Assembly (NCBI RefSeq): GCF_022026155.1
Contig: NZ_CP085041.1
Coordinates: forward strand, 404,306-468,305
Direction: 5' to 3'
Origin: Dissulfurimicrobium hydrothermale
GTDB taxonomy: Bacteria; Desulfobacterota; Dissulfuribacteria; Dissulfuribacterales; Sh68
DNA length: 64,000 nucleotides
The notes under the pieces were generated by a model. The model was given only the letters and a program-made list of their open reading frames with translations, had not been told where the DNA came from and made no database searches. The translations under genes were made by a program, and so were the position numbers. Positions 56,123-62,890 of this stretch are shown here, piece by piece; positions within the stretch are counted from its first letter, which is position 1; the number at the start of each line of letters is the position of its first letter.

Positions 56123-56439
56123 TTAAAATGTCAGCACCCTATCGCTTTCGGCGATCAACCGGTACAGGTCGGCCTGTTTGGCCCTTTTGTGATATCCTTC
56201 CTCCACGCCGTGGAGGTCAAGGAGCTTGCCTCAGGAAGCAAGGCGCCTTCGGATAGAGTGAACAGTTTGGCGAGATTGGTCAGGGGGTATCTTTCCGAGG
56301 CCAATATCTGGTAGTTGACAGACGGGCCATTAAGAAAGATGGTGACATCATCCATCTGCTCGAGCATTAGATTTCCCATGCGAAAGGCATTCCAGAGGAT
56401 CTCAGGATCACCACTGCATGCCATCAATGTTACTTTCAT
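56123..56439 (-). pseudogene. DsrE-like sulfur-relay protein gene, frameshifted, with a candidate selenocysteine UGA
   Basis: The first 69 or so codons from the ATG at 56439 encode a clear DsrE-like protein (KVTLMACSGDP, MDDVTIFLNGPSVNYQ, LAKLFTLSEG). The frame then ends in unrelated residues at 56155. In the -1 frame the family ending continues: LAS, a TGA at 56233-56231, then GKLLDLHGVEEGYHKR and RLIAESDRVLTF to TAA at 56123. One base is therefore missing near 56242-56246, or the sequence has an error. The TGA occupies the position of the conserved Cys of the family, and a strong hairpin follows it. DsrE-type proteins carry persulfide sulfur on that residue. GGAG lies before the ATG. Selenium-containing DsrE-like proteins are known from sulfate-reducing relatives. 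Confidence 0.7.
56196..56222 (-). promoter_or_regulatory. Candidate SECIS hairpin after the UGA in the DsrE-like gene
   Basis: Eight bases after the UGA the minus strand forms CCTT, a GA bulge, CCTCCAC, loop GGC, GTGGAGG, AAGG: eleven base pairs in total. The loop starts 22 bases past the UGA, within the range of bacterial SECIS elements, and is G-rich. It is inside the coding region. SelB recognition is not shown. Confidence 0.55.
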
Positions 56440-60539: not shown

Positions 60540-62890
60540 TCAGAACCTGTAGGTCAGGACCCCTAGAACGGACTGGACCTCAGTGCCTTGATCGCCATAA
60601 ACGTATGGTTCTTTGTCTGTAAATTTGTCATAGAAATAGTGCAACCCCAGCCCAATGGTATTTGTAAGGCGATAGGTTGCACCAAATGTGAAATCGAATT
60701 CTGAGAAGTCGAGATTTGAATAGTTTTGTATGCCGTTTATGTATGCAACATCATAGAGATATGGCATGTTGGGATTGAGAGAACTGACATTATAATCAAG
60801 CTTTACATCCCCTGTTGGATACATGCTTGCAAAGAAGAAGTCCTTAATGCTGCCCATGCCTTTTGTGTAGCTCAGGGTGGCGTTTAGGCCGATCTTCGGC
60901 GCCGGTTTGATGTCTGTACCAACCATAAAGGTGTGTGCCTCTGTCCTGTAGTTCATATTAGTGTGTTCAGAGCCAAACTGGCTCGATGTTATGAGGTTCC
61001 CTCACCCGTCATAGACGGCTATGCAATACATGGACTCGTATTTGTCGTAGAAATAGTTATAGCCTGCACTGAAGGCCATCTTTTCGTTCGGAGCCAGCAC
61101 CAGGTTCAATCCGCCGGTGAAGAGATTCTGATGCCAATCTCTGCCGTCTACCTCGTTATTGTTTCCTATGCGGTATTTTGCATAGAGGTTTGTAAAGAGT
61201 ATTTGGATGGGCGACCACCCTGCCTTGAGCCCTATTTCATGAAGCCTGTTGGGCATATTGCTCCTTGTCCCAGTTCTTGCATCATAGATATTGGGTGCAT
61301 AGGTTCTGTAATAATTCCAGTTGTCTGTGGCCGGACCAGCATAGGTGGCAAATTGTCCGCTAGGGGCGCACACTGCCTTGTAAAGGGCATAGACATCGTT
61401 TGCAAGCATAAGCTTATATCCAAGGTTGAACCTGGGCCCATTGTTTAACTGCCAGTCCCCGGCAAGTCTAAATATGTGTTCATCTGTGTCGTGCGGTACA
61501 TTGTGCTCCTTATTGTTTTCTCTTTCTTCCCGACGATATTCATAGCCGCCCATGATTGCAATCGTGCAGCTGAGCTTGTAGGTCAGATCAACGCCGCCTG
61601 TATAGAGGTTCAGGTCATAGCCCGATTTTCTTGTAAAATCGTATGTTGAAAAGGGTTCGTTTTTAAATGCATCAATCTGTCTCTGGTCGTTTACGTTTAT
61701 GAAGACGTTGTCGTTGTTGAGTGTTTGATATCTTACTTGCGCAGTCAAGGACAATTTTTTGGTTATGCGGCTATGTATCTTGGCGAAGAGCGAGCCGCTC
61801 TTAAGATCAAGGTCTTTGCCGTAATTGCCCAGGAGTGCATTGTATGATGAATCTGTGCCTCGGTTTGTGCTCACAGAATATACAGCCCCGGCCATTACGG
61901 TATTCTTCTTGTCTATATCGTAGCGTAGTTTTAGGCTGTGGCTGTCTTTGGTAGACTCTGGCGTGCGGTCGAATGGAAGCGCACCGTATGTCCCGTCGAA
62001 CTGGAGTTTCGGGCCGAAGGGTGCAACGTGTGCACTTGCTAACTTATTATAATTATTATACATTTTGTCGCCGCTGTCATCAAATTCCCTGTGCATATAT
62101 GAATAGTCTATTACAAGGGCCTCAAGTCTCAGAGAGAGTTTGGGTATGAAATCATTCGTGAGTTCATTTATATCTTTTGAATAGGCCTCTATATGACATG
62201 CTGAACACTTGCTCATGGTGCGCGACTGGACACAGCCTGTCCTTTTTTCCATTCTGTGATCAAAACCGAGTTTCAGTTCTGGTATCTGGGGTATATTGAA
62301 GACTATGCGGCTGTTCCACTCGGAGCGGGTAACCGAATAGTCATCTCCTGGTCCGTGATCCGTGTAATATACGGCGGCGGCCCCTATTATGCTCTGTCCG
62401 GCGGTTATGGCTGTGCCGTCAGGATTTTTCCCGGGGATTGGGCTTGAAAAAGGTAATCCTACAGGGGCGCCTGGCGTGCCTGCCCCTTTAAATATGTGTG
62501 CTTCAAGATTTTCCAGTTTGTCATGGTCTAGGCGGTGCATGAATTTGTTGTAGTCGGTCTTGTAAAGGATTATTCGATTAAGCGAGAGATCGCCCCTATA
62601 CTCCTGGTCTTCCGAATCTTGATATCTTGCAGAGCCATCCAGGTCAAGATTGCCCCCCTATATTTGAATCTGCCGTTAAGGTCCCAGTTCGAACCTTTAT
62701 CATAGATGCTTTGATATTCAGCGGCGCCCTTGGCCCCCTGCTCCTTTCCTTTCAGTTTGTCGTTTAAAGAGCCGCCGACCGTTATTTCACCCTCGATCGG
62801 TTTTTCATCATCCGCCAAGACCGGCGTGAAACAGATAAACAAAAGACCGACAGCGATTATCAAGTAAAGATAAACATTACTCATGTTCAT
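60540..62890 (-). pseudogene. MtrB/PioB-type outer-membrane beta-barrel, interrupted by a frameshift and a UGA
   Basis: Three frames on the minus strand form one protein of about 780 residues. It begins with a signal peptide (MSNVYLYLIIAVGLLFICF... ending VLADDE). The first frame breaks at a G6 run (62653-62658); adding one G continues as GNLDLDGSARYQDS. The second frame stops at a TGA (61004-61002) and resumes in the same frame as GNLITSSQFGSEH. Alternating aromatic beta strands and a terminal Phe (GVLTYRF) indicate an outer-membrane barrel, like MtrB/PioB, which encloses a decaheme cytochrome. A CSACH heme motif lies at 62193-62207. It starts 16 bases after the cytochrome gene. It may be a true pseudogene or carry sequencing errors. 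Confidence 0.75.

Follow-up and report, generated by a model that had tools for sequence, protein, structure and literature searches.

A probable DsrE-like selenoprotein gene broken by a one-base lesion in the Dissulfurimicrobium hydrothermale genome assembly

Introduction

Dissulfurimicrobium hydrothermale Sh68T is a thermophilic member of the Desulfobacterota that disproportionates sulfur (PMC8780430). Its genome is a single contig of 2,025,450 bp, from which a stretch of 64,000 nt (hereafter the window) was analyzed. One short locus on the minus strand of the window raises two questions: does it encode a selenoprotein, and why is its reading frame interrupted next to the UGA codon? A first-pass annotation had proposed a DsrE-like gene that is probably a selenoprotein gene, with a TGA at a conserved Cys, and had offered decay, sequencing error or recoding as explanations of the frameshift.

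Gene structure and homologues

The DsrE-like gene occupies 56123–56439 (minus strand) and is 317 nt long, one short of 106 codons; relatives have 105 codons plus TAA. It starts with an ATG at 56439, preceded by a GGAGG Shine-Dalgarno sequence. From this ATG, frame 0 encodes MKVTLMACSGDPEILWNAFRMGNLMLEQMDDVTIFLNGPSVNYQILASERYPLTNLAKLFTLSEGALL. Homology to DsrE-like proteins in frame 0 runs to codon 68 (56236–56439, minus strand; MKVTLMACSG...FTLSEGALL) and resumes in the −1 frame as UGA-GKLLDLHGVEEGYHKRAKQADLYRLIAESDRVLTF-TAA, ending at 56123. The selenocysteine UGA lies at 56231–56233 (minus strand), the position of the DsrE active-site Cys. It is followed by 35 conserved C-terminal codons (GKLLDLHGV...DRVLTF) and TAA at 56123–56230 (minus strand, −1 frame). 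As sequenced, the frame-0 ORF (56155–56439, minus strand) encodes 94 aa, misses the active site and adds an unrelated tail; no Pfam match was found for this product.

The upstream neighbour on the same strand is topA, separated by 18 nt, and a parB/parA pair is convergent with the gene. A sigma-70 promoter scan at the gene found nothing, and the gene is probably transcribed together with topA. No conserved neighbourhood or partner gene was found among relatives. Only one related group, of the Desulfobulbus type, had a convergent selB about 1 kb downstream; at six loci an ArsR-family gene lay upstream or nearby.

Homologues were collected from one genome per species with peptide patterns upstream of the UGA, the site itself being excluded, which gave 59 loci. 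Two of them were set apart: L082 has a frameshift at another place, and L088 is interrupted by Ns. The first-pass annotation had suggested asking homologues whether the codon is TGA or TGC and whether the missing base is present. In all 57 unbroken Desulfobacterota homologues spanning the site, this codon is TGA and lies within one continuous frame, unlike in the window copy. Six genomes among 60 relatives carry a full-length gene, 56–72% identical, with exactly one TGA each. A search across 395 genomes from the phylum agreed with this and added one homologue with Cys. This protein, L141, has Cys exactly at the UGA position (LLACGKCLGFRGLEG, ACGKC) and shares 46% identity with the window protein. 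In more distant DsrE proteins, the same column is occupied by Cys or Sec. Homologues with neither residue, named beforehand as counter-evidence, did not turn up in these searches. A new detail is that Sec is nearly invariant in this subfamily.

The window protein reads UGKL, with Leu replacing the second Cys of UxxC. The tree, built on a small protein and with many weak forks, requires two switches between UxxC and Uxx(L/I). As a further new detail, this suggests two probable losses of the second, resolving Cys (UxxL), leaving a lone-Sec DsrE. The nearest copies to the window gene (up to 86%) are L053, L063 and L065 of a Desulfobulbus-like clade, and copies from its own order are 72% identical or less, hinting at horizontal transfer. 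A second damaged copy is the frameshifted L082:6001-6295 of a Desulfonauticus MAG; a third damaged-looking one, L136:1501-1818, has TAG at codon 16.

The DsrE-like assignment is supported by these homologues and by structure modeling. The read-through window protein, as a single sequence, scored 15.2 bits against the Pfam DsrE model, whose gathering score is 22.7. The same family matched 28 of 31 relatives at E ≤ 0.1, with a best value of 1.8e-9, and no NCBIfam model for this subfamily was found. For relative L013, AlphaFold2 gave a model with a DsrE fold (pLDDT 97.7), and Foldseek matched it to 3pnx, 3mc3 and 2qs7. In this model, the Sec position is located at a strand end, before a short helix.

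The hairpin behind the UGA

A bacterial SECIS hairpin was located at 56195–56223 (minus strand). It has 12 pairs and a 2-nt bulge, with a UGA-to-loop spacing of 21 nt and a folding energy of −15.7 kcal/mol (z −2.6; 5 of 200 shuffles as good). The 11-bp hairpin with a G-rich loop that had been described here is indeed supported as a SECIS by covariation, but its size needs revision: only the top 7 bp and the GGC loop (56200–56216) are evolutionarily conserved, and the lower five pairs are poorly conserved among relatives.

Covariation was analyzed in a gap-free alignment of 53 distinct segments, each the UGA plus 45 nt. Their consensus fold was a 7-bp helix with a GGN loop. Both-sided changes occurred at column pairs 18-34, 19-33 and 21-31 in 3, 4 and 10 sequences, respectively, and two of the helix pairs were invariant. 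The covariation score (0.219) exceeded those of 500 out of 500 shuffles and of all slid controls. In one exchange, CTC..GAG to CTT..AAG, a silent third-base change is coupled to a Glu-to-Lys change, and the Val in this segment is always encoded as GTG. Protein constraint alone would make both the coupling and the constant GTG hard to explain. The bSECIS model requires a loop of 3–9 nt, an upper stem of 4–16 bp, a G in the first two loop positions, a location 16–37 nt from the UGA and an MFE ≤ −7.5 kcal/mol (PMC13188914). The window hairpin agrees with it throughout (loop GGC, 7 bp, 21 nt, −15.7 kcal/mol). An Rfam search with the hairpin gave no meaningful match.

Position and origin of the lesion

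All close relatives have FTLSEGxLxA (rarely G) right in front of the UGA, typically within FTLSEGxLLA-U-GK, and window frame 0 retains SEGALL. The missing base was therefore assigned to codon 69, which has two bases (56234–56235, minus strand) where the alignment with 57 relatives has an Ala or Gly codon. On this sequence comparison, the lesion is best placed immediately before the UGA. The first-pass annotation had seen correctly that the assembly contains a one-base frameshift, but had put it a few bases too far upstream, in AAGGCGCCTT (56251–56242). A lesion there would yield SEGALAS-U, and Ser precedes U in no relative. The same frameshift was not found among relatives with an otherwise intact gene.

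Relaxed constraint downstream of the lesion was looked for by pN/pS against the nearest relative, L053. The values were 0.13 before the lesion and 0.18 after it, within the range of intact control pairs. Both halves of the gene thus look constrained, indicating that the lesion is recent or artefactual. Decay and error are kept from the original list of explanations and recoding is disfavoured: the frameshift either arose very recently or is a consensus error.

The window has another Sec gene, encoding an MtrB/PioB-type outer-membrane barrel (about 62890–60542, minus strand) with an in-frame UGA at 61004–61002. Searching 60 genomes gave matches to it in 34, with one TGA in nearly all of them, and its family is among the selenoproteins already listed (PMC13188914). 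This gene also has a one-base-type frameshift, at about 62650–62665 (minus strand): relatives' residues ~6–80 and ~83–811 match in different frames, which meet at ~62655 beside GGGGGG.

A recent loss-of-function mutation (pseudogenisation) in strain Sh68, leaving an inactive 94-aa product, stands at about even odds. The assembly is a hybrid one, and the genome paper gives 1875 CDSs, 1824 of them protein-coding (PMC8780430), implying about 51 apparently broken CDSs, in our judgement a usual number. Other DsrE paralogues in the genome could make the loss tolerable (PMC8780430), and the copy in the Desulfonauticus MAG is also broken. However, the gene has no further lesion, its Shine-Dalgarno sequence and SECIS are intact, and the assembly itself invites doubt.

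The alternative is a consensus error, with the gene intact in the cell and one base lost during hybrid assembly. We rate this somewhat below even odds. The assembly was built from Nanopore R9 data and a small Illumina run (PMC8780430). The similar lesion in the MtrB/PioB gene, only 6.4 kb away and beside a G6 run, makes an error a serious possibility, and the freedom of the DsrE-like gene from other decay, with constraint on both halves, points the same way. Against it, about 50x Illumina coverage in a hybrid assembly should clear most such errors, and the lesion site is not a homopolymer. Moreover, a codon-model scan of the long genes of the window showed no other clear shift. This HMM scan for frameshifts gave no direct switch in the window; it has little power on short genes, and the mtrB shift escaped its first filter.

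Decoding of the UGA

The genome encodes canonical tRNA-Sec(UCA), SelA, SelB and SelD. Its selD (C1:578294-579217, L150) has an in-frame TGA of its own, and SelD is probably itself a selenoprotein. With TGA in 57 of 57 homologues, Cys in L141, covariation in the hairpin and this machinery, the earlier call of a probable selenoprotein with TGA at a conserved Cys held up. We conclude, with a probability of roughly 0.9, that the DsrE-like gene is a genuine bacterial selenoprotein gene, broken by a one-base lesion in this assembly.

A different decoding was considered, in which the UGA is read as Cys by a tRNA-Cys/SelB* pair. Such selC*/selB* pairs (tRNA-Cys plus SelB*) have been described in delta-proteobacteria (PMC7609411). 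In the region C1:1455000-1470000 (L098), the genome does have a second selB (C1:1461339-1463225), 36 nt behind a tRNA-Sec-like tRNA-Cys (C1:1461214-1461302), alongside the canonical selC and selB. The anticodon of this tRNA is GCA, which should not read UGA, and canonical tRNA-Sec(UCA), SelA and SelD are in the genome, so Cys decoding is very unlikely.

Selenocysteine insertion might also be coupled to a programmed −1 frameshift immediately upstream of the UGA. The shift would precede the UGA by 1–2 nt and the loop of a strong hairpin by 23 nt, and the C-terminal part is conserved. One mRNA hairpin driving both the −1 slip and Sec insertion would be a double recoding, which we find scarcely credible. 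No slippery heptamer is present, and a slip at codons 65–69 would restore pairing at no more than one of three positions. Slipping at the single CCC run (codon 52) would disrupt the conserved NLAKLFTLSEG. Since the slippery site is absent and the relatives are all single-frame, none having a split frame, programmed frameshifting was rejected as highly improbable. That a TGA and a hairpin met here by chance, with no selenoprotein, has next to no probability: the single-sequence hairpin z-score is modest (−2.6), but 57 of 57 relatives with TGA, the covariation and the Cys homologue all speak against it.

Discussion

The preferred reading is a selenoprotein gene broken by one base. In relatives with an intact gene, SelB on the hairpin behind the UGA would deliver Sec-tRNA-Sec, giving a DsrE-fold protein of ~105 aa. 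Its selenolate would be placed where DsrE/TusD proteins carry a persulfide, and the protein would probably transfer sulfane sulfur (or selenium) or take part in thiol redox reactions in the sulfur-metabolising cell. In Allochromatium, DsrE-Cys78 binds sulfane sulfur and hands the sulfur to DsrC (PMC3397948). From this chemistry and the fold, a role as a selenium-based sulfur carrier or in thiol redox is our best inference. In the Sh68 assembly, codon 69 is short of one base, so the UGA would be out of frame for ribosomes, which would make the 94-aa product without an active site.

Two conserved Sec genes with one-base lesions in a published 'complete' type-strain genome call for caution before metabolism or recoding is inferred from it. 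About 60 members were seen of a well-supported selenoprotein subfamily that is easily mis-annotated in sulfur-cycling Desulfobacterota.

DsrE-like selenoproteins were reported in 2005 from a Sargasso Sea set and in 2006 from Desulfovibrio vulgaris (PMC1088965, PMC1794560), and are listed with the motif UxxC (PMC13188914, PMC9312934). By its sequence, the window gene is assigned to this known family (PF02635, UxxC), as a UxxL-type member that is broken as sequenced. It shares the sequence family, the UGA position and the SECIS, and members from Nitratidesulfovibrio and others of the Desulfovibrio group (L074–L081) fall in the same alignment. The difference is that the window copy is frameshifted and reads UGKL.

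A second DsrE-like Sec group occurs in other Desulfobacterota (L022, L024–L029; YVUGVCxKSHGLEGSS). Like the window gene, it has Sec in the same active-site column and a hairpin behind the UGA, but its identity is 28–30%, it retains UGVC as well as a third Cys, and it is a separate DsrE lineage.

Among characterized structures, 3pnx (Syntrophomonas), 3mc3 and 2qs7 (both Sulfolobus) aligned with the query at TM 0.71–0.76 and 10–13% identity. The only sequence match in the PDB was 1jx7 (YchN), and it was weak (E 0.14). None of these four is a selenoprotein as far as the analysis shows.

The DsrE/TusD sulfurtransferases (DsrEFH, TusBCD) have the fold class and active-site region in common with the window protein. 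Sequence similarity is distant (Pfam 15–17 bits), and the TusBCD chain 2d1p_C ranked low in the fold search. Unlike the genes of these complexes, the window gene stands alone without adjacent dsrF or dsrH, and Sec replaces Cys in its product. By analogy, the sulfane-sulfur chemistry at the Sec/Cys position is probably the same.
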